Program-made: the position numbers and the translations under genes
Part shown: in pieces, positions 1 to 26,099 of the stretch
Layout: each line of letters opens with the position of its first letter
Position numbering within the stretch: the stretch's first letter is position 1
Origin: Solicoccozyma terricola
Taxonomy: Eukaryota > Basidiomycota > Tremellomycetes > Filobasidiales > Piskurozymaceae
Direction: 5' to 3'
Length of the DNA: 26,414 bases
Assembly: GCA_001600875.1 (NCBI GenBank)
Contig: BCLD01000002.1
Location: forward strand, 546,344 to 572,757
Notes under the pieces: model-generated
Told to the model about the DNA's origin: nothing
Database searches by the model: none
Seen by the model: only the letters and a program-made list of their open reading frames with translations

Positions 1-290
1 ACACCCAGGTTGTAGCAAGATTGTGCCTTGCCCTGCGGGTCGCCGACCTCATCGTAGAGCCGCAGCGCCGCCTCGAACCTCGCCCTCGCCTCGTCGTGCT
101 TGTATTGTTCAAGAGCGATCACACCCAGGGTGTACAAAGACTCTGCCTTGCGCCGCCTGTCGCCGACCTCATCGTAGAGGGCGAGCGCCTCCTCGAACCT
201 CGCCCTCGCCTCGTCATGCTTTGATTGCTCAAGATCGACCACGCCCAGGTTGTATAGAGACTCTGCCTTGTCCCGCCGGTCGCTGACCTC
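1..290 (-). repeat. 120-bp tandem repeats encoding TPR units
   Basis: Units begin near 1, 121 and 241 (plus-strand motif acacccaggttgtag or a close variant). Nucleotide identity between units is high, including third positions. That indicates recent unit duplication or homogenisation, as seen in repeat domains of fungal NLR sensors. The array continues past the window edge. Confidence 0.75.
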
Positions 291-716
291 GTTGTGAGCA
301 ACGTCTCTCTTTTGCCCAACGATGTTAAACTTGACCTGGTGAGAGATCGGTTCTGCTGATAAGTTGACTGTCTGAGAACGATCTTCGCAATCGCCTAGTT
401 GCCCTATACCCACCAAGCCCACCGTATACCAGTTGGGCTCCGGCGCGATATTCAGTTCTGGAGACGGCCAGATATCCTGCGCAACGTCTGTTTTCTGCCC
501 AACGATGTTCAACTTGACCTGATCAGAGGTCGGTTCCGACAGGAGGTTAACGGTCTGAGACGGCCGCCATGATACCTTCCCCAGACGTTCCTCAGGAGCC
601 ACACTGGAGTCATCCACCACGCTCCCAACGCAAATATACTGCGCTGCATAAGAGAGAGGTTCGGGAGGCATGTTCAGTGATTTAGGATCCTCTAGCCTGT
701 GATCGGGATTAGACAT
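1..716 (-). CDS. TPR-repeat protein, N-terminal part (runs off the left edge)
   Basis: Reading the minus strand from the ATG at 716, the frame stays open to base 1, giving about 238 codons without a stop. An in-frame TGA lies upstream, near 747-749, so 716 is the best start unless an upstream exon exists. Residues from about 140 onward are tandem 40-residue TPR units (120-bp DNA period) with the pattern LG-V-LEQ-KHDEARARFEEAL-LYDEVGD-RKAESLY, typical of the TPR_12/kinesin-light-chain-like sensors of fungal NLR (NB-ARC-TPR) proteins. The N-terminal ~130 residues hold two copies of a ~27-residue segment (SQTVNL-SEP...QVK-NIVGQK-DVA) that I do not recognise. No NB-ARC or NACHT motif lies inside the window. 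TPR arrays act as protein-interaction scaffolds; partner and effector cannot be read here. Confident as a TPR protein, not as an NLR. Confidence 0.72.
   Translation of the reverse strand, partial: MSNPDHRLEDPKSLNMPPEPLSYAAQYICVGSVVDDSSVAPEERLGKVSWRPSQTVNLLSEPTSDQVKLNIVGQKTDVAQDIWPSPELNIAPEPNWYTVGLVGIGQLGDCEDRSQTVNLSAEPISHQVKFNIVGQKRDVAHNEVSDRRDKAESLYNLGVVDLEQSKHDEARARFEEALALYDEVGDRRRKAESLYTLGVIALEQYKHDEARARFEAALRLYDEVGDPQGKAQSCYNLG
298..560 (-). repeat. Imperfect ~80-bp tandem duplication inside the TPR-protein gene
   Basis: The segments at about 298-377 and 481-560 are roughly 80% identical and lie about 183 bp apart, a multiple of three. The frame is kept, so the protein contains the unit twice, each time with the motif NIVGQK. 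This is an internal domain duplication rather than a mobile repeat. Confidence 0.7.
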
Positions 717-1203
717 GTAGAGGTCACATGAAGCTGAATGGGGACCTTTCGAACGAGATCAGGCTCTATCAGTCAGCTAATCGGTTCGACAACAGGACAA
801 TTCAGCGGAGGAGCCTCACCTCGACGGGCCTCGTCGCTGTCGTTGCTCTCCTCACATACATTAAGCAGCTGACAATCCATGTTTTTGACGTGGCGGATCA
901 CCAAATATCGAGACGGTGATCTCGCATTTGACGATGTTGGAGGACAAAATGACACAAGCAGAACCGCCTTTGTGATCTCGTTCCGGCTGCATGGAACTTG
1001 AGCTGTTCGACGTATCCACCCCTGGCGCAAGGGGATGAGCTTAAATCGCCCAGCTTTTTGAGCTGATTCAGCTGGACTTGAATCCAGCCTGGCGCGCTTT
1101 CATAAGCTTGTCGGAAGCAGATCGAATTCGAACTGTTTGAAGTAACATTGTCGAATTATTGCACGTCCCTACTTTACTCGCCTCACCACCAAATGGGTTC
1201 TCT
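717..1203. other. Intergenic, upstream of the TPR-protein gene
   Basis: About 490 bases with only short open frames on either strand and no family I recognise. Because the TPR gene is transcribed leftward, this stretch should hold its promoter, but I see no clear TATA box. Confidence 0.4.
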
Positions 1204-4735: not shown

Positions 4736-7700
4736 ATGAATCCGGACGAATCACCTGCCAACGGCGGGGGAAACATGAGTCCCGCAGCCCAAGCAATGGA
4801 CGCTAGAATTAGAGCTCTGGAATCGGATCCTGAGAACCTGGTCAGCAGGTATATCCGAGAGATCGACAAGTCCATACGAAAAACCCTGCATCAACCGGCT
4901 CGAAGTATTCTGCAGGACATTCATCAACAGTCTGAAAAGATGGAGGGCGAATCCCGACCGAATTACCTCTACTACCTCTACGTTGCGGACGCCCTGATTT
5001 CGCTACAACACCAGCAAGACCTCGACGACCAGGACCCGTTCAAGGAGGCCTTGCGTATGGCCGAGATCGCGGTCACAAAAGCTTCGCCTGGTCAGCGACG
5101 CCTGGTCTACAAGGATCTCGTGACTCCGCTCTGGAGGGCATTTCTAGCTAGGCAACCTTCCATCGACACCATTCGCCGCTTACAAACTTTCATTCGGGAC
5201 GCCGTAGCTTTCTACTTAAATGTCCCGGAAAGGGCCAGCACGAGGAGTGCCTTGTGTCACTTCTTAGGCCAGATGGGTGTCCGCATTTGGGCCAGCAATC
5301 GAAATGTGGACGAGCTAGACTCAGCAGTAGATGACTTCGCCCTGTCGGACGACCTGGCGGCTCCAACTACCGAGGAGGCGAAGGCAAAGACTATCCGGCT
5401 TTACGATTACCAGCACGCTCTCTATGTCGCCGGGATTGAGAACAAGGACCGGGGAAGGTTGGAGAGGGCTTTGAAAATCGGGAAAAGATCTCCCGGTGTC
5501 TCTTTCTCCATAGACGACGAGTTGGAAGGAGGTCCTCTCAGGCAACACTTGGACTTGATCGAAGATCTCGAGCTCCTCTACAACGTCACATCTGATCACG
5601 AGGAAGTTTTGCGAATAATGGACAAAGGTCTACTTCGAACCGGTCCTCAAGATGCCGACAGGGAGCAAATAGCCAAAATCGGAAGCCGTCTTCTGACGAA
5701 CACTTTCGACAGGCTGCCAGACATCTCCAGCAGATACGCATTGCTGAACTGGGTAGATACCTCGATTACTCATGCAGACTCAAATGACGGCGCCTGCCCG
5801 GTGCTTCTGTCGCTGAGCGCCGCTCTTCACTTCAAAGCTTGGCTTAAAGACCATGATTCCCGACATTTGGACGCCAGCCTTCGTCAGTGGACTCAAGGTT
5901 CCTGTGGTGTCTTTTTGAAGGAGCTCTCCGAGATATTCCTGCGAATGCAGCCAACCAATAATGGCAGCCTACAACAAGAGACCGGAGACGTTCAAGCCGT
6001 GATGGAATGTCTTGAGAAATGGCGATTGGCCCATGACGCTCCCATGCCCCTCCGTCTTTTCGATAAATATGTCGGGCAGCTCGACCAGTGTGTCGTCAGC
6101 CAATACATCTTTATGCTCTTGTCCTACTCTTCTGGGGGTCCTCTCAATTTGTTCCACGTCGAGAAAGGCATCAAGTTCGTACGTGGTCTCATCGCCGCCG
6201 CCGAGGGTAACTCGTCCGAACAGGGAGCGAAAGTCGCACTCGAACTTCAGATCCAACTTGGAAGACTTTTCATCGTCTTGGAAGATGAACCCAGCTTTCG
6301 GGATCGGAGCGCAAGAGCCGCAGACGAGGTGCTTAAGAGTGTCAGGACCGTCTTGATCTCAGTCAAGAGGCATGGTTTTTTCTCGGCCTTCAGCTCGAAC
6401 ACCGGAAGAAAGCTCTGCTACAGGCCGCAGCCGCTTATCAGAAGAGCTTGGTCGCTCCAGTGACGGTTTTCTCGTCAGTTTACCCAGTTCGACACTGGTC
6501 GATGACTCAACTTGTGGAGGTCTACCTGAGGTTGCCTGACCCTGACCCGGAATCAGCCCTGAAGACTTGCGTGGAAGGAATTGAGGAGCTCGAAACCCTT
6601 GTCGACCTCTCCATCCCGTTGTCAGACATGGAGATGCTATCAAAAAACCCCTCGATCTTGACCCTCGGCAGCACTGCCTTTGCCCTCGTTATGGATTATC
6701 ACGCGATAATGTTGCAACCATCCTTCATCTATCGAGCTTTGGAGCTCTTAGACGATAGTCGCGGCGTCATCATCGTAAGCCTCATGGGAACACGTCGGAA
6801 CTTCGAGGAATTGAAGGACGACGGCATGCAAGAAGTCGTCGATCGAGCTCAAGAACTCAGAGCAAAGATGTCGGTAGATGGATTGCCTCAGGATGGATTA
6901 TTTGTGATGACGACTGAGCAATTATCGCGAATTCAGCAGTCTCGAGAGACCGCCACCAAGTTCCGACGGCTCGTCAACGATGTGAGGAAGATGAAAGGGC
7001 ACGATCGCTTTTTACGAATGCCAGCGGAGGAAGACCTGATGCGCGCCGCTGCGCATGGGCCCATCGTGCTGGTCAACGTTCATCTATTTCGGAGCGACGC
7101 CATAGTGATCACGCAGAAGACCATCAGTCACCTCCCGCTTTCCAACTTCAGCGCAGACGATGTCAATGTCAAGTTCAACCCTACCTTGTATACATGCGAG
7201 GCGAACCAAAGATTGAACGTCAACGGCGAGCTTCTCAACACGTCTTTACCATGGCTCTACACGTCGGCCGTGCTTCCGGTCTTGCAAAGTCTTGGATTCG
7301 AACAGCCCAGCGGTCGAAGATCGCGCCCGGAAGATCTCCCCAGAATTTGGTGGATTGGATGTGGCGCTGCCAGCCATCTGCCTTTCCATGCTGCCGGCAT
7401 ATACAACGCCAAAAGCCCAGACAGGACCATGGACCATGTCATCTCCTCCTATGCTCCCACCCTCAAAGCGTTGTTCCATTCAAAGTATCACTCCGCCGAG
7501 CTTTCGAGCCTCAAAGACCGGTTCACCGTGTTCGGGACGACTATGCCAACCACGCCTGGCATGAACAGTCTTCCTAACGCAGGAGCAGAGCTGGCGGCAG
7601 TTCGGAAGGCCTTCAAGGAGAAGTCGAAAGCCGACTTCATCGAACCCGAATCCCCGTACGCCTCCGATGCCCTCGACCTACTGCGTAAATGCCGCCTGTA

Positions 7701-8008
7701 TTGCATTCCTGTCGGCATGCTCGACCGCCCAAAATCGCGTGAAAGAACTTGAAGACGAAGTGCTGCATCTAGCCTCGGGATTCCTTGTCGCGGGATTCCG
7801 TCATGTTATCGCTTCNATGTGGCCCGTCTCTGACTTGTTCTCCCCCGATTTTGCGGACATGTTCTGGAAGACGGTGCTTGACATACCGGTGGAGGTATGG
7901 GACGATAGGTTGGTGGCGCTAGCCGTGCACAAAGCGACGCTTCACGTCCGAGAAGACGTTTCGGATAACCCGTTGGCATGGGGGCCGTACGTGCATTGGG
8001 GTGCTTGA
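4736..8008 (+). pseudogene. TPR-CHAT protease, copy A (broken)
   Basis: Paralog of the intact gene at 15262-18762. The start is set at 4736 because both proteins begin MNPDE and stay alignable from there. The frame is open to about 6336, where ~10 bp present in copies B and C are missing. Coding then continues in another frame to about 7690. There a ~155-bp deletion removes the segment carrying the catalytic-His motif HLVCHG and shifts the frame again. The catalytic-Cys motif FLSACSTAQNR survives at about 7706-7738, and the end (VHWGA, stop) matches the family. The N-terminal two thirds are TPR-like helical repeats, followed by the usual linker (LLDDSRGVIIVSLMGTRR) and the CHAT fold (WWIGCGAASHLPFHAAG). 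An ambiguous base sits at 7816 but falls in a TCN serine codon. Even if the frames were rejoined by splicing or error, the product would lack the His. Confident as a pseudogene, barring assembly error. Confidence 0.88.
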
Positions 8009-8988: not shown

Positions 8989-11850
8989 TTAAGCACCCCA
9001 ATGCACATATGGCGCCCAAGCCAAAGGTTGCATGCCTGTATCCATATCCTCATTGTCCCTCACGAAAATGGTTGCCCTGTGGACAGCCAGTGCAACGTCC
9101 CTGTCTTGCCATTCCGCTACCAGCTTCTGCATCATCGTCTCCCAGAACATGGCTGCAAATTCGGGCGAGATCATGTCGAAAACGGGCCACATAGAGGCAA
9201 TAACATGACGGAACCCCGCGACAAGGAATCCCGAGGCCAGATGCAGAACTTCATCTTCAAGGTGTTCAACGCGATTTTGAGCGGTCGAACAGGCCGACAG
9301 GAAGACAATGCAGGCCCGACGGAGATCCATCTGAGTAAGTTGGGCAAGAGTAAGCTCCTCGAGCATTGGCATAGTACTGGATCCGACCTCGGGTTTGTGC
9401 AGAAGAGCAAGGTAACTTTGAGATGGCGTTCGCGGGTCGGATTGGCCGTGACAGACGAGATGAGCGGGCTTATCGCAGTCGGTGGAGGGCATCGGAGGCC
9501 AACCGGGATTCGAAGATGTCGACTTTCGGCGTCTTTCCCTTTGCATTAAGCAGCTTCTCCTTGAAGGCCTCCTTGACTGCTGCCAGCTCGTCTTCCGCTT
9601 TAGAGAGACGGTTCATGCCAGGCGTGGTCGGCATTGCTGTCCCGAACACGGTGAACCCGCCCTTGAGGCTCGAAAGCTTCGCAGAGTGATACTTTGAATG
9701 GAACAACGCTTTGAGTGTCGGAGCGTAGGAGGAGATGACATGGTCCATGGTTCTGTCTGGGTACTTAGGGTCGTGGGTACCCGCAGCGTGGAACGGCAGA
9801 TGGCTCGCAGCGCCACAGCCGATCCACCAGATTCTGGGGAGATCTTCCGGGCCCACGCGCGATCGTCGACTGCTGGCCTTCACGTACTGGAGACTTTGCA
9901 GGACCGGAAGGACGGCTGACGCGTAGAGCCAAGGTAAAGACGACTTGAGAAGCTTGCGGTTGATGGTCGCCCTCTCGTTCGCCTCGCATGCATACTTGGT
10001 AGGGTCGAATTTGGTTTGGATTTCGCGCTCTCCGAAGTCTCTAAGAGGGAGATGAGTGATGTTTCTCTCTGTGACCACTATGGCGTCGCTGCGAAATGGA
10101 TGGACGATGACCAACACGATGGCTCCATCCCTAGCGGCGCGCATCAGGTCTTCTTCCGCCGGCGTTCGTAAGAGGCCGTCGTACCCGTTCATCTTCCTTA
10201 CATCGTCGACGAGCCGTCGGAACTCCCCGGCGGCCTCTCGAGACTGCTGAATTCGTGATAATTGCTCCGGAGGCATTCCAAATGATCCATCTTGAGCCGA
10301 TTCACCCGGCGACATTCTTGCTCTGAGCTCTTGAGCTCGATCGACGATTCCTTGCATGCCTTCCCCCTTCAACTCCGCGAAGTTCCGACGGGTTCCTGTG
10401 AGACATCCAATGATGATGCCGCGACCATCGTCTAAGAGCTCCGTAGCTCGGTAAACGGACGACGGTCGCAAAGTTATAGCAAGGGCAAAGGCTGTGTTGC
10501 TGATGGCCGAGAATTGTGCCAACTCACCCTCCATGTCGGATAACGAGAGGGAGATATCGAGCAGGCTTGCTTGCTCCTCGATTCGTTGCGTGCAAGTGTG
10601 CAGGGCAGATTCCCGGTCATCCAATGCCAGGTAGACCTCCACAAGTCGATTCATCGCGATGCCTCGATAAGGGAAATGAAACGTGAAAGCCCTCACTGGA
10701 GCGACCATGCACTTCTGATAAGCGACTACTGCCTGTGGCAGAGTTTGAGACCGATGTTGGAGCTGATAGCCGACGGCATACCATGCCTCGTCACTGAGAT
10801 CAAGACGGTCCTGACAAGCGAAAAAGATCTCGAGCGCGTCGTCTGCCGCTGTAGCGCACCGGTCCCGAAAGCTGGGCTCATTTTCCAAGGCCAAGAAAAG
10901 AGTTCCTAGTCGGATCCGAAGTTCGAGTGCGATTTTTGCTCCCATTTCGGATGAGTTATCCTCGGCGGCCGCGATCACACGAAAGATGGACTTGATCCCT
11001 TTCTCGACGTGGAGCACACTGAGACCCTGTTTGTATCAGCGCTGGAGAATTCCTACGTAGTTTATTACGAAAAGCTGGTCTTCTTGCCCTCGATATTCAT
11101 CGAAAAGACGGATGGGAATGGGAGCGTCATCGGCCAATCGAAGGTAATGCATCTGCTCTACCAAGGCCTCAACGTCGCGGGTCTGAGGTCCGCTTTGTCC
11201 AAGGCAGTCAAAATCGGGTCGTCCCAGTCGAAGCATCCTGTCGCATATCTCGGAGATCTCTGGGTGCGTCCCAATGGCACCCCAATTTCCTCATGTCGAG
11301 AATCGTGATCTTTTAAATAGAGCTGCATGTGAAGAAAGGTGCTCAGCCACAGAAGCGCCGGGGGAGCGACGTCGTTTGCGTCTGCACGAGGAATCGAGTT
11401 GTCGACCCAGCTCAGCAAATCGTATCTGGTGGAGCGGTCTGGCAGCCTGTCGAAGTTGCTCCACAGCAGACTGCTTCCTATTTCGGCTATTGCCTCTCTG
11501 TCCGCATCTTGAGGATTAGTTCGAAGCAGGCCTTTTCTCATTACCCACAGAACTTCCTCATGGTCTGATGGGACGTCGCAAAAGAGCTCCATATCTTCTA
11601 TCATCGCCAAGTGCTGCTTTAGGGAGCGTCCTTCCAATTCGTTGTCGTCAGAAGAATAGACACCAGGAGATCGCCGGCCAATCTTCAAAGCCTTCTCCAA
11701 CCGTCCTCGGTCCTTGCGCAAACTCCTCTTCCATACTACATACTCATCTGCCCCTTTTAGTTCCACCGTTCCTTTTACCACCTTAATTTCTCCTTCAGAT
11801 TCGGACATGTTGTTACGAGGTTTGCGTGCCGTACGTCGTACGTCGTTCAT
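8989..11850 (-). pseudogene. TPR-CHAT protease, copy B (broken, 5'-replaced)
   Basis: The minus-strand paralog of A and C begins its homology at about 11715 (DRGRLEKALKIG), so the N-terminal ~220-240 residues of the family are missing. The ~45 codons before that point are unrelated to A and C (see separate entry). Damage seen: a frameshift near 11270-11290 after DHDSRH; an in-frame TGA at 11036-11038; and a ~5-bp deletion near 9468, just before the catalytic His. Unlike copy A it keeps both catalytic motifs: HLVCHGQ with the His codon at 9448-9450, and FLSACSTAQNR with the Cys codon at 9289-9291. The end (WAPYVHWGA, stop at 8989) matches the family. Residues encoded between 11017 and 9470 form one uninterrupted 515-codon stretch. 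That might still be expressed as a fragment, but it ends before the His. Best read as a pseudogene. Confidence 0.87.
11716..11850 (-). other. Foreign 5' segment fused to CHAT copy B, possibly a gag start
   Basis: About 45 codons precede the CHAT homology in the same frame. From the Met at 11808 the reading is MSESEGEIKVVKGTVELKG followed by ADEYVVWKRSLR. The pattern (LKG, then D/N-x-Y, then W and a basic stretch) resembles the N-terminus of copia-type Gag (UBN2/DUF4219-like), where LKG-NY--W is characteristic. This suggests that a retrotransposon 5' piece replaced the CHAT N-terminus. The resemblance is short and remains inference. Confidence 0.35.
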
Positions 11851-12003: not shown

Positions 12004-12211
12004 TCCGTGCACGAGTAGAGTAGTGGGACGAGTGTAGGATGTAGCTTTACACGGGTACAAGCTATGGGCCCATAACCTGTTGAATGTATATGATATAGGT
12101 ATAGAACTATCCTTCTCTATTCCAGTACAATGCACTCTATGATGCAGGGATTAGAAAGGAGAGGATTGGCCGTGACTGTGTTTCCGACATAGAGACCCAA
12201 CCCTTCAGCCT
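12004..12211. other. Between microsatellite and HPP fragment
   Basis: No gene recognised. The HPP reading frame stays open a little upstream of 12212, but I cannot align it to the family there and no convincing start codon is visible. Confidence 0.35.
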
Positions 12212-12573
12212 CCATATGATCCACTCCCGTTTCCTCCTTTCTCCTGGCTAAATCTCCTGTCCTTCAAGTACGAAACATGGATTCTTTCGACAATCGGATC
12301 TTTCGTCAGCATCGCCCTCATAGAAGTAGTCCTGTCCGCAGCCTTTCCGGATCACGACACACTCCTCATCGTGGCATCATTTGGCCCGAGTGCTGTACTG
12401 AGCTTCTCCACCACAGAGTCTCACCTTGCGCAGCCGAGGCATCTACTGGACGGGCAAATACTCAGCGTAGTGCTTGGAGTTGGGCTGAATCGCCTATTCA
12501 GAATGGCCCCGTATTATTTTCTGGACGACGTGATCTGGACGGGAGAGCTTAGCCATCTCGTGTTGGTTCTCTG
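12212..12573 (+). pseudogene. HPP-family integral membrane protein, N-terminal fragment
   Basis: The plus-strand frame at positions congruent with 12212 reads PFPPFSWLNLLSFKYETW, then a hydrophobic helix (IGSFVSIALIEVVLSAAF), then LLIVASFGPSAVLSFS, TESHLAQPRHLLDGQ and ILSVVLGVGLNRLF. ASFG-SAVL and S-LAQPR are hallmark segments of the HPP family (four-helix membrane proteins, related members of which are linked to nitrite transport in plastids and cyanobacteria; fungal role unknown). The family-naming His-Pro-Pro motif should follow within ~40 residues, but similarity fades after about 12545 and the motif is absent. There is no supported start codon. It is a truncated relic sitting between a microsatellite and a minisatellite; ~110 codons remain of a protein usually twice that length. 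Confidence 0.7.
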
Positions 12574-12855
12574 CCACACATGTGCACGCAAGTCCAAAGA
12601 CGTCCAACCCTCTCTACAGCAGGAAAATTTGTCGAAGATCGGAAGAAGCAGATATATCAAAGGTTTGAATGTGGCTGCAGGTGGAAGAATGGGTGGGGCC
12701 TGTAAAATGGCTGAATGTAGACAAATCATAAATCAATGCAGCCAAGCGGATATGCAGGCGAATTTGTCTAGCGATGAACGATATATTTCCATCGTCACTA
12801 CGCTTCCAGATCTTTGCACATCAATCTTTGTCTTCTCGGTACCGGAAGTAACACA
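12574..12855. other. Non-coding flank of HPP fragment
   Basis: The HPP frame stays open to 12865, but its sequence no longer resembles the family. Nothing else is recognised. Confidence 0.4.
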
Positions 12856-12961
12856 GTGCAGATAAATCGTGCAGATAAACCGCGCAGATAAACCGTGCAG
12901 AGAAATCGCGCGATAAATCATATCGTGCAGACAAATCGCGCAGGTAGACCGTCCAGGTAAA
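12856..12961. repeat. 13-bp minisatellite (GTGCAGATAAATC)
   Basis: About eight diverged units follow in tandem: four close copies at 12856-12907 (G[T/C]GCAGATAAA[T/C]C), then shorter or mutated ones to 12961. Frames reading through the array on the minus strand are repeat artefacts. Confidence 0.85.
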
Positions 12962-15261: not shown

Positions 15262-18200
15262 ATGAACCCAGATGAACTACCCGCGGTCAGACTCGCAGTT
15301 CGAGCATTGGACGCGAAAATATTGGCCCTAACCGATCCGGAGAACCCGGTCTGCAGGTATATGCAAGAGAGCAGCAAGTCCTTTCGAAAAGCTCTGTACC
15401 GACCGGCTCAAAATGTACTGCAGGAGATCCATCAACAGTCTCAAGGCCTGGAGGGCAGAGTTCGACCTGATTGCCTCTACCGGCTTTACGTTGCGAAAGC
15501 AAAGTTTTCGCTACAACACCAGCAAGACCTCGACGAACAGGACCCGTTCGGAGAAGCACTAAACATGGCAGAGATGGCTCTCAGGGAAGCTCGGACTGTT
15601 GTCCCTGGTGGTTATACTTATATGGTCGACCATGATCTCTATGTCCACCTGCAAGCAGCATTCAACTCTAGCGAACCTGCCATCGAAACCATCCGGCACC
15701 TACAAACTTTCGTCCGGGACTCCGCAGTAGACTCCTTGTCTGCCTCCGAACGAGACTGGGCCAGCTATATGTATCACTTCTCAGGACGAATGAGCTTCCG
15801 CGTGTTTTCCCGCACTAATGATTTTGACGAGCTAGACGAAGCAATAGGTGACTTCGGCCGAGCGGACGACTGTGCTACACTTAACGAAGAGCGGTGGATC
15901 AGGACTACTCGGCTCTTGCAATACCAGAATGCTCTCATTCAACTGGGCGCTCACCGCAAGGACCAAGTAACGCTAGAGAGGGCTTTGGTAATCGGCCAGC
16001 GGTGTCCCGGTGTCTCGTCTCCTGTCGACGACGAACTGAACGGAACAGCACTCAGTTTTCAATTGATGACGATGTACCACCTCGAGCAGCTCTTCAACGT
16101 CACGCCCGACCCCGAGGAAGTTATGCGGATAATGACGAAAGGCCTGCTTCGGATCGATGCTAAGGAGGAAGATAGAAAGAACATAGGCGGGTGTGGAGTT
16201 CGTCTGTTGCTGGCCATTTTCCCCAGGCTGCCGGACGTCTCCCGCATGGACTCACTGCTCAAATGGGTTCATAGCTCGCTCTCCGAGGCAGGCGCAAACG
16301 AAGCCACCCGCCAGGTGTTTCTAATGCTGAGCTTGAATCTTCACATCCAAATGCGGAATATAACAGGCGATTCTCGGCATTCCCTAGCTGCCATGGACCA
16401 AATTATGGCGGGCGCTTTAAGCCAATACCCGGAGGTCTTCAAGGAGTTCGAGGAAATGCTCCGTATGAGCTGCCGTGTGCTGCCTCTACTGGGGACAGGC
16501 GATGCTCTCACATCGACACGCTTACCTCTCCCGCTTGAAACAAGCGGTCCGCGAATTCCCGCGCCGGAGACCGGCGAGCTGGATGCCTTCATGGAGCAAC
16601 AACGCAAATTTGACATAGGAATGGATGCGGTCTGCCCGCCCTCTCTTTTCAGTCCGCTTTTGGGACCGAGGGATAGGGAGGGGGTCAGACGTTACCTCGA
16701 TATGCTCCGCCGTTACTACTCAACGGGTTTACTCAGCGTGCACCCTGTCATAAACGGCATCGAGTCCGTACGGAGTCTCATTCAAGCCGCAAAAGGTGAC
16801 TCAAGCCAAGTGGCGGCGAAAGTTGAAATAGAACTCCGGATCCACCTTGGATCACTCCTCATGGAGTTGAAAGAGGATCCCAGCTTCCGGGACCAGAGTT
16901 TAATAGCCAACTACGAGCCACTCAAGCTTTTCGATACCTGTCGGGATATGCGAAATCTCGGTGAAGATGCTTGGCATGTTCTCGGCCTTCAGCTTGAACG
17001 TCGAACCCAAGCTTTACAACAGGCTAAAGTCGCGTATCAGAATAGCTTGGCCACTCGAGTGGACGCTGTGTCGTCAAGTTTCGATCTTCGATACGCCACA
17101 ATGGGTCGACTTGTGAAGATCTACCTGAACTGTGATGAGAGTCAAGAAGCCTTGGAGACTTGCACAGAAGCAATAGAGGAGCTGGGATCCCTTCTCGACA
17201 TCTCCCTCCCGTTGAGGGACATGCAGCGCCAATTATCAAACATATGGACCTTAGGCAGCACCGCCTTTGCCCTCGCTTTAACCTTGCAAGCGCCCCTCCA
17301 TCGAGCAGTGGAGCTCTTGGATGAGGGACGCGGCATCATCATCGGAAGTCTTACAGGTACCCGTCGGGACTTCGAGGAGTTGAAGGGGGAAGACGCACTT
17401 CGAATCGTGAATCAAGCTCAAGAGCTCAGACTAATGTTGTCGCGAAAAGCACCGGGTCAAGGTGCTCCTGCTCCTTTCATGATGTCGATCGAGCAATTAT
17501 CGCAAATGCAGCAGTCTCGAGAGGCCGCCACGAAGTTCCGACGGCTCGTTCACGATGTGAGGAAGTTGAACGGACATGATCGCTTTTTAAAAACGCCAGC
17601 GAAGGAGGACCTTAGGCGAGCCGCTGTTGATGGGCCTATCGTGCTGGTCAACGTGCACCAACTTCGAAGCGACGCCATAGTGATCACTGACAATGAGGAA
17701 TGCTTCAGTCATATCCCGCTTCCCAATTTGAGCGAGGCCGATATCAAAGACAAGTTCGACCCTACCATGTACACGTGCGAGCCGAACGAGAGGGTGACCG
17801 TCAACTGCAAACTTATAGAGACTTCTTTACCCTGGCTCTACTCGTCGATTGTGCTTCCCGTCTTGCAGAGCCTCGGATATCATCAGCCCAGCGGTAGAAG
17901 AACGGGCCCGGAAGGTCTCCCCAGAATCTGGTGGATCGGCTGTGGTGCTGCCAGCCATCTGCCGTTCCACGCTGCGGGCCGACACAATGCCAGGAAGCCA
18001 GACAGGACAATGGACCATGTCATCTCTTCGTACGCGCCGACCCTCAAAGCTCTGTTCCACTCGAAGTATCACTCCGCCAAGCTTTCCATCCTCCAAGACG
18101 CGTTCACGGTCTTCGGCACGGCAATGCCGACTACACCCGACATGAACGCTCTGCCCAACGCACGAGCAGAGCTGGCAACGGTTCAGAAGGCCTTCAAGGA

Positions 18201-18762
18201 GAAGCTGCATTATGCCGGGGGAAAGAAGCCGAAAGCCGACATTGCGGAATCCCAGTATGCCTCCGTTGCACTCGACCGCCTTCGTGATTCCCGAATCGCT
18301 CACCTCGTCTGTCACGGCCAATCCGACCTTAAATGGCCGTCTGAAAGCTACCTTGCTCTTCTGCGCAAACCCGACCTGGGCTCTGTTACCCCACCAATGC
18401 TAGAGAAGCTTACTCTCACCCGTCTTACTGAGACGGATCTTCGTTTCGCCTGTATCGTCTTCCTGTCGGCTTGCTCGACCGCTCAAAATCGTGTGCAAGT
18501 ACTGGAAGACGAAGTGCTGCATCTGGCCTCGGGTTTCCTTGTCGCGGGATTCCGTCATGTTATCGCCTCCCTGTGGCCCGTCTACGACACGTTCTCACCG
18601 GATGTTGCTGATTCGTTCTGGAAGAATCTGCTCGACAAGGAGGTGGACGAATGGAACGACGGGTTGGTGGCACTAGCGGTTCACAAAGCAGTCCTTGACG
18701 TCCAAGAAGATGCTCCCGACAATCCGTTGGGCTGGGGACCTTTCGTGCATTTGGGGGCATGA
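15262..18762 (+). CDS. TPR-CHAT protein, intact copy C (caspase/separase-like protease)
   Basis: 1166 residues in one uninterrupted frame. The ATG at 15262 (MNPDELPAV) is chosen over the 33-codon upstream extension because copy A aligns from the same MNPDE. Residues ~40-680 are TPR-like helical repeats. A linker near 684 (LLDEGRGIIIGSLTGTRR) is typical of TPR-CHAT proteins. The CHAT domain covers about 790-1166 (GPIVLVNVHQLRSDAIVIT, IWWIGCGAASHLPFHAAG). The catalytic dyad is visible: His1018 in HLVCHG and Cys1071 in FLSACST. CHAT is a clan-CD cysteine protease fold; bacterial relatives cleave partner proteins, including gasdermins, and fungal ones are proposed cell-death effectors. No signal peptide or membrane helix is seen, so it is probably cytosolic. 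Substrate and trigger are unknown. No introns are needed, which is notable for a 3.5-kb basidiomycete gene. It is the only one of three copies without a disabling change. Confidence 0.93.
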   Translation: MNPDELPAVRLAVRALDAKILALTDPENPVCRYMQESSKSFRKALYRPAQNVLQEIHQQSQGLEGRVRPDCLYRLYVAKAKFSLQHQQDLDEQDPFGEALNMAEMALREARTVVPGGYTYMVDHDLYVHLQAAFNSSEPAIETIRHLQTFVRDSAVDSLSASERDWASYMYHFSGRMSFRVFSRTNDFDELDEAIGDFGRADDCATLNEERWIRTTRLLQYQNALIQLGAHRKDQVTLERALVIGQRCPGVSSPVDDELNGTALSFQLMTMYHLEQLFNVTPDPEEVMRIMTKGLLRIDAKEEDRKNIGGCGVRLLLAIFPRLPDVSRMDSLLKWVHSSLSEAGANEATRQVFLMLSLNLHIQMRNITGDSRHSLAAMDQIMAGALSQYPEVFKEFEEMLRMSCRVLPLLGTGDALTSTRLPLPLETSGPRIPAPETGELDAFMEQQRKFDIGMDAVCPPSLFSPLLGPRDREGVRRYLDMLRRYYSTGLLSVHPVINGIESVRSLIQAAKGDSSQVAAKVEIELRIHLGSLLMELKEDPSFRDQSLIANYEPLKLFDTCRDMRNLGEDAWHVLGLQLERRTQALQQAKVAYQNSLATRVDAVSSSFDLRYATMGRLVKIYLNCDESQEALETCTEAIEELGSLLDISLPLRDMQRQLSNIWTLGSTAFALALTLQAPLHRAVELLDEGRGIIIGSLTGTRRDFEELKGEDALRIVNQAQELRLMLSRKAPGQGAPAPFMMSIEQLSQMQQSREAATKFRRLVHDVRKLNGHDRFLKTPAKEDLRRAAVDGPIVLVNVHQLRSDAIVITDNEECFSHIPLPNLSEADIKDKFDPTMYTCEPNERVTVNCKLIETSLPWLYSSIVLPVLQSLGYHQPSGRRTGPEGLPRIWWIGCGAASHLPFHAAGRHNARKPDRTMDHVISSYAPTLKALFHSKYHSAKLSILQDAFTVFGTAMPTTPDMNALPNARAELATVQKAFKEKLHYAGGKKPKADIAESQYASVALDRLRDSRIAHLVCHGQSDLKWPSESYLALLRKPDLGSVTPPMLEKLTLTRLTETDLRFACIVFLSACSTAQNRVQVLEDEVLHLASGFLVAGFRHVIASLWPVYDTFSPDVADSFWKNLLDKEVDEWNDGLVALAVHKAVLDVQEDAPDNPLGWGPFVHLGA

Positions 18763-19118
18763 GGTAAGCGAGGCCTGTGAAGCCAGGATCTTCAGTTTCA
18801 TCACTCATTAATCCTGTCTGCGCTCGATATCGATGTCAGTCTGGTGCGATGCAGACTGTTGTTCGATCTTGTTGGAAGTGGGTGAATACTGTTATGGTTG
18901 ATGCTGAAGAATCGCATTGCAATGCATGGCAGGATGCAGGGGGCAAAGAGCTTTGTTTCCATGTTGTAAGAGTACTATATAGTCGGCCACTTCTGGTCAA
19001 GCTCGATGTACAACAGAATGAGAAAAAACCATAGAAACAAAACCCAATCATTCCTAACAGATTAAGAGTCGCACTTGCGCTATCAACATACCTACTACTT
19101 CAACATGTCCACTTCAAT
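18763..19118. other. 3' flank of copy C
   Basis: Only a short 3' similarity to copies A and B just after the stop; otherwise nothing recognised. Confidence 0.4.
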
Positions 19119-20533
19119 ATGTCAGACAACAAGTCGATTATTTCCAACTTTGCGGCATGGAAGCAAGCGGTACAGAATCAGCTTTCCTTGCCCGCTGCAT
19201 CGGAATTGTTGATGGGAGCGATATGGAACCATTCAGGACTGCCACAGCGATGGCTTCACGCTCAGTCTGTGCTGCTGCAGCTCTGCCAACAGCAACAGAA
19301 AAGATTCCAGCCACTAATTTGACAGTGGAACAGTTGGATGAGTGGAGGAGGTGGCCGATGCGAGAAGAGAAAGTCTAAGGAGTGATCCGGACAACAGTCT
19401 CTGATGGGATTGTTTTCAACATTCTGGACATGAACTTGGCCAACCAAATGTGGGACTACATACTGGCAACACACTAACTCGACAGTCCTGAGGAGCAAGC
19501 ATAAGTCAGTGATACCTTGACAACCATCAGGCTCAAGGGCGATCCTTTGGCAGAGGAGATGGAGATACATCTTGAACAATTCCCACTTTGTTTTACTGCG
19601 CGCACGGACCAAAAGCCTCAAGATCAATGAGGCGGCACGGACTGAATGCCTCTTGGTAACGTTGCCAAAGGCTCTTGCCGCGCTGCGACATCAATTCCGA
19701 TTGGCGGATCCGATCAAGAAGACATGAAGACATGAAGACATGGCTTGAAGTCACTAAGCAATACAACCTTGAAGCCGATAGAAAGAGTCCATCAGGAACA
19801 GGAAACAGGTTTGCTCTCTTGTCAGAGACAAAGAAGGAAGGCCAAACACGTTCCTACTCTGCCATGATTTCGCCACTTACCCGACTACTTTGCAAGGATG
19901 TACCTTTCAAACTGGGACGACATATGTGACACAGCCTTCAACAAGCTCAGAACGGCATTCACAACTGCACCAATCCTTACACATTTCTCACCCAATCAAC
20001 CTATCTTCATTGAAACGGATGCTTCGGATTTTATTATTTGCGCAATCTTCTCACATCCGGACAAGGCCAACCCAAAGCTACTTCATCCCATCGCATACCC
20101 CTCAAGAAAGCTAGCACCAGCAGAACACAACTACGAAATCTACGACAAAGAAATGCTGGCAATCGTGGAAGCTTTCACGGTATGGCGGGCTTGCACAGAA
20201 GGATGCGAATACCAAATCACCATCTACACTGACCACAAGAACCCCGTCTACTCCATCACATCGAAAACCTTCAACAAACGGCAAACTCAATGGTGGTTAA
20301 ACATGTCTGCTCTCAACTTCAAGATTATCTATCTACCAGGAACAACAGTGGGCAAGCCTGATGCCTTGTCGAGACGACAAGATTATTTGGAGGAGAGTAG
20401 GGCATCAGAAGCAGCACCAAAAGTTTTCCTCAAACCGAATCAATATGACTTTTCGGCAATGGAAGGACAACAAGACACAAAAGGAAACACAGCAAATGAA
20501 CAAAACAAGGAACAATACCATAAGAACAAGTAG
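19119..20533 (+). mobile_element. Internally deleted LTR retrotransposon (gag joined to Ty3/gypsy RNase H)
   Basis: 19119-19860 encodes a decayed Gag of UBN2 type, read across several frames: NFAAWKQAVQNQL, then LTVEQLDEWRRW, then VFNILDMNLANQMWDYILAT, then TIRLKGDPLAEEMEIHLEQF and LVTLPKALAALRHQF. Stops and frameshifts interrupt it, and a 9-bp unit (gaagacat plus one base) is tandemly repeated near 19720-19742. From about 19860 the reading jumps to the end of a Ty3/gypsy reverse transcriptase (ISPLTRLLCKDVPFK). After a 1-nt shift it continues as WDDICDTAFNKLRTAF, ETDASDFI, then RNase H (YPSRKLAPAEHNYEIYDKEM, YTDHKNP) and PDALSR. Protease and most of the reverse transcriptase are missing between the two halves, and no integrase follows. 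Non-functional relic; no LTRs identified. Confidence 0.85.
19898..20533 (+). pseudogene. Ty3/gypsy RT-connection/RNase H fragment
   Basis: 211 codons open in one frame, the best-preserved part of the element above. Visible are the RNase H core (TDASDFIICAIFSH), the connection motif YDKEMLAIVEAF, the YTDHKNPVYS segment and the terminal PDALSRR. The frame has no start codon of its own, because its natural upstream part is in another frame. The tail after DALSR is Lys/Asn/Gln-rich and ends before any integrase zinc finger. Confidence 0.85.
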
Positions 20534-21245
20534 CAGAAAACAAAAAAGCAACAAAAACACAAAAACATCTCTCACTTTGGCACCAGTCGATTTACATCAA
20601 CGACCTTCAGAAATATGAACGGTTATACCCTTCAGGATTTGTCAACTTCAGCCTTAGGAGTTAAAAGTGCTTGCATGCCGAGCTGAACTCGATTAGGGTT
20701 TTGATCCCATGATCGATGACGATGACTTGGGTGATTGCATGGCAAATATCATGGTTGAAGATTTCTTCCCCGAGTTATTCGCTAGCTCCGTTTGTCATCC
20801 GCGAAGAGCGAGTTACGCAGCAAGGTTCTCCTCCGTCTTCCATACACTGCCGTTCTGGATCATTCGCCGCGATCGTATAGGCCTTCGAAGCCTTAGAGAA
20901 AGAGGCAGTATGGGTGGGAACGGCGTGATCGTGCGCGCATTCTAAAACGGCGGGTCCCGGCAAAGTTGAGATTGGAGTGGGAACGTTGAAGACACGTGCC
21001 ACGAGGCGTGAGGGCGTCGGCATTCGGAGTCTGGTAGGGGTCCCCCCCAGTGCCTATTTACGTCAGAGAACCTAAAGAACCTGTACTGAAACAGTACTCG
21101 TATGACTGTTGGGACGGCAACTTGTTCTTTGACCCATACTTTAGTCACCCATTGATATACATGCCCGAGAAGCTGCAGAGAGGGGATCGACGCTTAGTCC
21201 GAGAGTGACTTGGTCACCCTTAAACCCTTAACATTGAAGGAAGAG
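20534..21245. other. Intergenic between retrotransposon relic and the 272-residue gene
   Basis: A-rich just after the relic (20535-20570). Short frames only. No LTR, terminator or RNA gene recognised. Confidence 0.4.
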
Positions 21246-22064
21246 TCACTCGTCTCCGTCTGCCTCCAACGCGATCTCTTCCTCTTCGCCTTCTTCCAGT
21301 TCCAACCTGTAAGTCCACTCGTGACCTTTTTTGATCTCCGCCTCTCTGGTCACTGACGGCATCAACACAGGAACATCGTCGGCTAAGTCTGCCTTCAGTC
21401 GGTTGATCAATCGCATCCTCCAGTCGAATTTGACCTTCTGATAGTGGACCAGGAAAATACGTTCTCCTGGATAGGACCCAGAGCCGGCGATCTCGACACC
21501 TTTCTTGGCCTCGGCAGAGAAGGCAGGATCGAGGCCAGGGACGGACACTCCAGTCGCGGCTAAAATGATCTGGGACACGGGGATGGATCCTTCGAAATTG
21601 ATTGCCTTGAAGCTGACGGTGTATTCCTTGACGTCGGCGTCCTTGACCGAGGTAATACCGGTGACCAGATAGAGCTCTTGAGCGTTGTCAATGAAGTAGT
21701 ACAAGGTGCCTTTGCCGGTCTTGCCCTCGCCCTGCTCTGTGACAGCGCGAGCAAGTATCCGATCGAGGAGGTCGGAAGGTCGAAAGAGCTTCTTGACGTT
21801 CTCTTGAGGAGTGACGAGATAGACAACGCTGGTATCGGCTCGATCTCGACTAACTTCCACGAGTTGGTTCAGCTTGAGGCCTCCGTGACCATTGCGGAGG
21901 CAAGCGTAATATCTCGAGACGTTGTTCTGCGAATTCGGGCCGTCGATCTCTTTCTCGCCGAGATCATGGCAATCGAAAATCTTCGCGGTCGGATTTGACC
22001 TATTTCTGACGAGACTTCCGAGCTGAATCAATCCCATATTTTCGAAGCTGATCCTGGTTGGCAT
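21246..22064 (-). CDS. Intact 272-residue protein, candidate fungal gasdermin-like pore-forming protein
   Basis: Single-exon frame from the ATG at 22064 to the stop at 21246. Seen directly: a mixed alpha/beta pattern with a long hairpin-like segment at residues ~119-154 (GTLYYFIDNAQELYLVTG, then a charged turn and KEYTVSFKA), a hydrophobic stretch at ~158-178 (EGSIPVSQIILAATGVSVPG), a strand pair at ~199-215 (PGERIFLVHYQKVKFDW), and a strongly acidic tail at 255-272. There is no signal peptide. The size is close to fungal gasdermins (RCD-1, HET-Q1; about 250-280 residues, short C-terminal inhibitory tail removed by a protease). The order ELYLVTG ... PGERIFLVHYQKVKFDW resembles the gasdermin N-domain pattern ELxVVTE ... 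IPxGSxLAFRVxQL. Its position 2.5 kb from an intact CHAT gene fits fungal gasdermin-protease pairing. The family assignment is inference; the gene itself looks real. Confidence 0.42.
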   Translation of the reverse strand: MPTRISFENMGLIQLGSLVRNRSNPTAKIFDCHDLGEKEIDGPNSQNNVSRYYACLRNGHGGLKLNQLVEVSRDRADTSVVYLVTPQENVKKLFRPSDLLDRILARAVTEQGEGKTGKGTLYYFIDNAQELYLVTGITSVKDADVKEYTVSFKAINFEGSIPVSQIILAATGVSVPGLDPAFSAEAKKGVEIAGSGSYPGERIFLVHYQKVKFDWRMRLINRLKADLADDVPVLMPSVTREAEIKKGHEWTYRLELEEGEEEEIALEADGDE

Positions 22065-25356: not shown

Positions 25357-26099
25357 AAGGACGCGAAGGCTGTCTTCCCGACGCAAGAAGATCCCGCCTT
25401 GCTGGATTACCAAACACCCGACTTTCGTGAGACGCCCAATCGGTGGCTCGTGCTTCGACGCTTGGAGTTGGACACGGTGAAGCGAGATGCTGCGGATTCC
25501 ACCTACCAGCCACGGATTGACGAATTCAAGGCGTGGATCATAGAGAGCAACATTCGGCAAGATTTTAGGTCCCCAGACTACAAGACAGATCTGGAGATGG
25601 ATATGTCACCATTTATCCGAGGTAATGCTGCTAATATTGATTCCCAGGCTGAGGTGTTCATCGGGCAAAACTCGGATGCTGCAGGTTGGTCTCCCAGTGG
25701 GAAAACTGGGATACCAGCATCGATCATGAATTCGTCGAATCCTCTTTTTGTCGATTATGTGCCTCATAACTGCAATGTTTTCTCCATGGTCGACGACTTC
25801 ACCTATGGACTAGACAACAAATTCAAGATGTTGTCGGCTGTTGCTTCGTATCAAGTCTTTGGGTGGCATGTCCAAAAGGTCAAGGATCCCTTTAATATCA
25901 CGATCCTTGATAACGGCTACCTCGGCAACACACAGCTGGATCATGGACGGTCACTTCCAACAGCAAGCCCGCCACCATCAAGGCGGACGATCTGGGTAAA
26001 AGCTTCCTCAACACGGCTCCTGTAGCGATCGGTACTACACAGAACGTAATGATCTCGTCATCCGTGGGGACAGACCAATACATCCTCGTAGTCGGTTGA
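25357..26099 (+). pseudogene. Fragment of a large uncharacterised fungal protein
   Basis: Frame 1 is open from 25357 (just after a TGA) to 26025 without a supported ATG. It reads LLDYQTPDFRETPNRWLVLR, then SPFIRGNAANIDSQAEVFIG, SSNPLFVDYVPHNC and FSMVDDFTYGLDN, then ASYQVFGWHVQKVKDPFNIT. From about 25938 a different frame carries on: NSKPATIKADDLGKSF, then PVAIGTT. The order of these motifs (VSPF near the start, FS-VDDFSY, SYHVFGW----DPFN, SKPAT--AD, AIGTT) is one I associate with very large fungal proteins of unknown function. The assignment is from memory and uncertain. It shows truncation at the 5' end, a frameshift or deletion near 25930, and a 3' end running into a copia fragment. No function is known. 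Confidence 0.45.

Follow-up and report, generated by a model that had tools for sequence, protein, structure and literature searches.

Within the window, a stretch of 26,414 nucleotides from Solicoccozyma terricola (positions 546,344-572,757 of contig 2, in a genome of 23.9 Mb and 33 contigs), two convergent genes very probably constitute a two-gene regulated-cell-death unit, in which a TPR-CHAT sensor protease would cut a gasdermin-like protein of 272 residues in its linker. Both are open and complete, as the first-pass annotation had claimed, the CHAT gene on the plus strand and the gasdermin-like gene on the minus strand with a methionine start common to its relatives. The 2,490 bases between the two matches, about 2.5 kb, fall inside the 10 kb named as the distance from gasdermin to protease gene in PMC10197012. 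TPR-CHAT/gasdermin pairs have already been described in fungi, and this pair is a divergent form.

As for mechanism, we infer a series of events in which the long helical-repeat front of the TPR-CHAT protein would recognise a trigger and release the separase/caspase-like CHAT domain with its His1018 and Cys1071. The freed protease would then cut the adjacent gasdermin within its flexible linker, around residues 217-247. This would take away the short acidic tail that would otherwise restrain the pore-forming body, and the released body could assemble into membrane pores and kill the cell.

Fold, tail and coding constraint of the two proteins

By its domains and conserved His-Cys pair, the larger protein can be classed as a TPR-CHAT protease, with proteolysis as the predicted activity: TPR repeats precede a CHAT domain that scores 108.3 bits against a curated Pfam cut-off of 24. 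From what is known of the caspase and CHAT families, we take the two invariant residues, His1018 and Cys1071, to be catalytic.

The gasdermin call for the smaller protein, which had rested on strand pattern, is supported by its structure model, whose closest match is RCD-1 (PDB 8jyy, 8jyz and 8jyx; 9-13% identity over these matches); other gasdermins match too, rather than an unrelated family, with the bacterial ones scoring below the best RCD-1 chains. On this model the fold is gasdermin-like, and pore formation and membrane binding are predicted. The protein also resembles fungal gasdermins in being short and in having only a brief C-terminal extension; RCD-1 proteins have 244 and 257 residues (PMC12881547). 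Neither Pfam, PADLOC nor NCBIfam holds a family for the protein, four of its relatives have no Pfam match above cut-off, and in sequence comparisons with the PDB only, no gasdermin was matched by phmmer or by a 7-sequence profile, nor did P0008 alone find anything there. The 11 phmmer matches that the 272-residue protein did return from the PDB (de novo beta-trefoils, starting at 5.4e-4, and HigB-2 toxins, which matched more weakly) were judged to be driven by composition or chance.

The short acidic tail that had been noted is also there, the final 25 residues having a net charge of -11 against +2 in the remainder, and it is conserved in all five proteins of the same type that were examined (P0001, P0003, P0004, P0005 and P0006, that of the window included) at -8 to -11, the last four ranging from -8 to -9. 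It was not found in any of three predicted, distant proteins of a second type (P0007, P0008 and P0009), whose ends depend on gene models. HET-Q1 becomes active once some 5 kDa has been lost from its C-terminal end (PMC12881547), and by analogy the linker would be the most likely site of proteolytic cutting.

Comparisons between paralogues point to purifying selection. The ratio of nonsynonymous to synonymous substitution rates (dN/dS) is 0.35 at a dS of 0.41 between the window's gasdermin-like copy and the intact paralogue L002, and 0.34-0.36 at a dS of 0.41-0.47 against three close paralogues, one of which is frameshifted and was compared up to the break; it is 0.50 against a linker-less copy and 0.48 between two CHAT frames. 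These values, pairwise averages over both branches from five gasdermin-like and two CHAT copies, indicate that over much of their history the genes were maintained as protein-coding, and say nothing on the present function of each copy.

The pair in Naganishia cerealis and its relatives across the genome

Conservation of the pair is best supported by Naganishia cerealis, a Tremellomycete by its lineage record and a member of a yeast genus. Its QFC19_003416 is the only organism-named relative of the 272-residue protein, at 40% identity, whilst QFC19_003415 is the closest organism-named relative of the CHAT protein (41%; only P0010 is closer). Since the two carry consecutive locus tags and have the same longest contig, of 211,576 bases, we read them as neighbours, from tags rather than DNA and in one species; co-occurrence in a related genome, checked in this way, is thus seen. 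In the CHAT tree, the Naganishia CHAT protein falls together with P0010 and the copies of this genome (100/100), and the trees (14 CHAT rows and 10 gasdermin rows, broken copies excluded except for one N-terminal part) leave open the branching order among this genome's copies. P0003 and P0010, both from JGI, lie on separate contigs (longest 4,265 and 5,656 bases) and are therefore uninformative on pairing.

Genome-wide, the 272-residue protein has 13 matches, which resolve into eight contig-2 places plus a distant one on contig 5. Two of the contig-2 copies are plainly intact, that of the window and one at 478393-479271; among the rest, one contains N and is without the start common to the others, one has lost the linker region, two are frameshifted or contain stops, and two are fragments. 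The CHAT protein has 34 matches, of which 28 are on contig 2, at 15 loci as grouped here, all within 165-630 kb, with weaker or partial relatives on contigs 3, 5 and 26. Five full-length open CHAT frames were counted on contig 2 (208174, 219715, 391219, 492486 and 561482), nine of the 15 loci having been read at full length and one partly, while the remaining five are partial matches. Pfam CHAT domains number at least 25 in the genome, with at least 15 on contig 2. This island (G000:C2:165000-630000) holds eight of the nine gasdermin-like places and 15 of the 25 CHAT domain matches amongst decayed copies and retroelement remains, and the full-length frames in it are open without introns. The genome's best Pfam CHAT match, at G000:C2:340159-341091 (plus strand, 1.7e-64), belongs to an open frame of 1265 residues whose resemblance to the window's CHAT protein is distant (8.1e-9). 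Elsewhere in the island, the CHAT copy at 208597-211707 scores best against the Naganishia CHAT protein (49%) and has a dead gasdermin-like copy 1.4 kb away, an arrangement consistent with the birth-and-death turnover that PMC10197012 reports for fungal gasdermins.

The contig-5 relative (G000:C5:629982-630818; L031:3980-4819, minus strand; 25-27% identity) has P0008 and P0009 as relatives and is without the acidic tail. No CHAT match lies within 160 kb of it, by the genome-wide Pfam CHAT counts that are lower bounds, and no subtilisin (S8) match lies nearby; neighbouring frames match catalase and DUF3533, and one side is only partly visible, as 5,161 of the 10,000 bases at C5:635000-644999 are N. 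This gene could possibly represent a second, cleavage-independent gasdermin type. Subtilisins were considered as partner proteases and rejected: of at least four matches in the genome, spread over contigs 5, 11 and 21, even the closest lies 100 kb away from a gasdermin-like gene.

Alternative explanations and known systems

Some observations speak for rival readings of the pair. The closest fold, RCD-1, is cleavage-independent (PMC12881547), and the model aligns with the RCD-1 end up to residue 261, so that there may be little true tail; several divergent gasdermin-like copies, at a dS of about 0.4-0.5 to the window's, also coexist in one genome. Perhaps, then, the 272-residue protein is a gasdermin-like pore former activated without cutting, by meeting a different variant as RCD-1 does, whilst the CHAT protein acts on another target. 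We consider this unlikely, given that the acidic tail is conserved in all five same-type proteins examined, that the relatives of both proteins are adjacent in Naganishia, and that some 80% of gasdermin genes in fungi occur in clusters with genes for proteases (PMC10197012); as for RCD-1-type incompatibility, a single genome displays paralogues and not alleles.

Regarding spacing, three of the eight gasdermin-like places on contig 2 lie within 3 kb of a CHAT copy and four within 10 kb, where random placement within the island expects 1.4 and 3.4 (P 0.15 and 0.47), and placement over the whole of contig 2 expects 0.39 and 0.97 (P 0.0055 and 0.010). The test was run on contig 2 with pieces merged to eight gasdermin-like and 15 CHAT-family loci, and omits the contig-5 gasdermin, CHAT loci of other contigs and the contig-2 CHAT loci at 331824, 340159 and 456252. 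The two families share an island, and their side-by-side order within it is not statistically significant; a CHAT copy is absent from the vicinity of several gasdermin-like copies. The earlier argument that the genes are kept together because both are intact holds as to the frames, but is a weak one alone when proximity in the shared stretch is no better than random. That two unrelated genes have come to lie side by side by chance, in a decaying stretch rich in repeats, is nonetheless quite improbable: the Naganishia locus tags are consecutive despite only 40-42% protein identity, and the same 2% of the genome holds eight of the nine gasdermin-like places and 28 of the 34 CHAT-protein matches. 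Least probable of all, and very much so, is that the protein belongs to a different class of beta-rich pore formers (MACPF/CDC-like) or has an unrelated fold, its match to RCD-1 and other gasdermins being a by-product of a modest model.

The TPR-CHAT/gasdermin unit that we favour most resembles the Podospora anserina cluster (Clave et al. 2022, PNAS; via PMC12881547 and PMC10197012), where a TPR-CHAT cysteine protease sits beside a short gasdermin, and where CHAT cutting and activation of the gasdermin have been shown (PMC12881547). It differs in that its nearest named relative is a basidiomycete, its gasdermin is unmatched to PDB or Pfam by sequence, its genes are convergent around a retroelement relic, its copies have multiplied, and for the most part decayed, within a single stretch of chromosome, and cutting is inferred. 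RCD-1 of Neurospora crassa, the best structural match and of similar length, works by the meeting of two allelic variants and without a protease. HET-Q1 of Podospora anserina is likewise a fungal gasdermin with a removable C-terminal piece, but its partner HET-Q2 is a subtilisin-like serine protease and not a CHAT protein, and the S8 matches of this genome are far from its gasdermin-like genes. Csx29, the TPR-CHAT protein of Craspase (type III-E CRISPR), works instead with an RNA-guided CRISPR effector, and its substrate is Csx30. Bacterial gasdermin systems also place a gasdermin beside a protease, in some cases a CHAT protease (PMC10197012), whereas this pair consists of eukaryotic single genes.

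No gasdermin of Naganishia, Tremellomycetes or other basidiomycetes was found described among the results listed from the literature searched, with subscription papers and supplements outside its scope; no paper in that literature combines gasdermin with Tremellomycetes, and passages of PMC12881547, PMC10197012, PMC8229728, PMC9815663, PMC12871775 and PMC9119436 describe none for that lineage; a published set of 1900 fungal gasdermins may include basidiomycetes. Tentatively, and somewhat short of an even chance, Tremellomycetes including Naganishia could possess a gasdermin lineage that has so far gone unrecognised and comprises two or more branches, one tailed and cut by TPR-CHAT proteases, the other tail-less (the contig-5 gene and P0007-P0009), free of protease neighbours and cleavage-independent. 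If true, this would mean pyroptosis-like death in yeasts independent of hyphal fusion, with a role in defence and not incompatibility. Could a gasdermin-like family invisible to Pfam, with a TPR-CHAT partner, mediate pyroptosis-like death in basidiomycete yeasts? It suggests at least that sequence-model counts of fungal gasdermins miss members, and two single-frame genes allow direct testing.

Other features of the window

Table 1. Coordinates of the candidate unit and of associated features in the window
Feature	Position	Strand	Basis
TPR-CHAT protease gene, 1166 residues, single open frame with stop	15262..18762	+	Pfam CHAT 6.3e-31
N-terminal helical-repeat (TPR-like) part, residues 42-405	15385..16476	+	
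CHAT domain, residues 856-1165	17827..18756	+	Pfam PF12770
His1018 codon, presumed catalytic	18313..18315	+	invariant in 16/16 aligned proteins
Cys1071 codon, presumed catalytic	18472..18474	+	invariant in 16/16 aligned proteins
Gasdermin-like gene, 272 residues, with stop	21246..22064	-	structure model and structural matches; relatives P0003, P0004
Predicted pore-forming body, residues 1-216	21417..22064	-	AlphaFold2 strands and helices 40-219; net charge +1
Low-confidence linker, residues 217-247	21324..21416	-	predicted local distance difference test (pLDDT) <50 at 217-248
Acidic C-terminal tail, residues 248-272, net charge -11	21249..21323	-	
Retroelement RNase H relic between the two genes, outside the system	19868..20533	+	Pfam RT_RNaseH_2 2.2e-29, RT_RNaseH 1.9e-27
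Frame-broken CHAT paralogue	4736..8005 (G000:C2:551079-554348)	+	three overlapping frames
Broken CHAT paralogue, internal stops	8992..11727 (G000:C2:555335-558070)	-	

The dead retrotransposon reported between the two genes is recognisable by its RNase H relic, for which the coordinates give the Pfam-matched part. Both broken CHAT copies lie upstream of the intact pair; the pieces of the plus-strand one lie in different frames, with overlaps of a few bases, and are therefore not exons. That the pair are the only two intact complete long frames stands for complete frames inside the window, but not beyond it, where a TPR frame with similar repeats (3-758, minus strand; Pfam TPR_12 3.4e-14) crosses the left edge. 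The GC (guanine-cytosine) content of the window is 46-56%. A 222-residue open stretch at 25357-26025 (plus strand) is without clear family, its sole Pfam hit, Clostridium P-47 at 0.069, being below cut-off, and part of an HPP transmembrane-family gene occupies 12176-12865 (plus strand; Pfam TM_HPP 2.4e-18, with about half of the profile covered).
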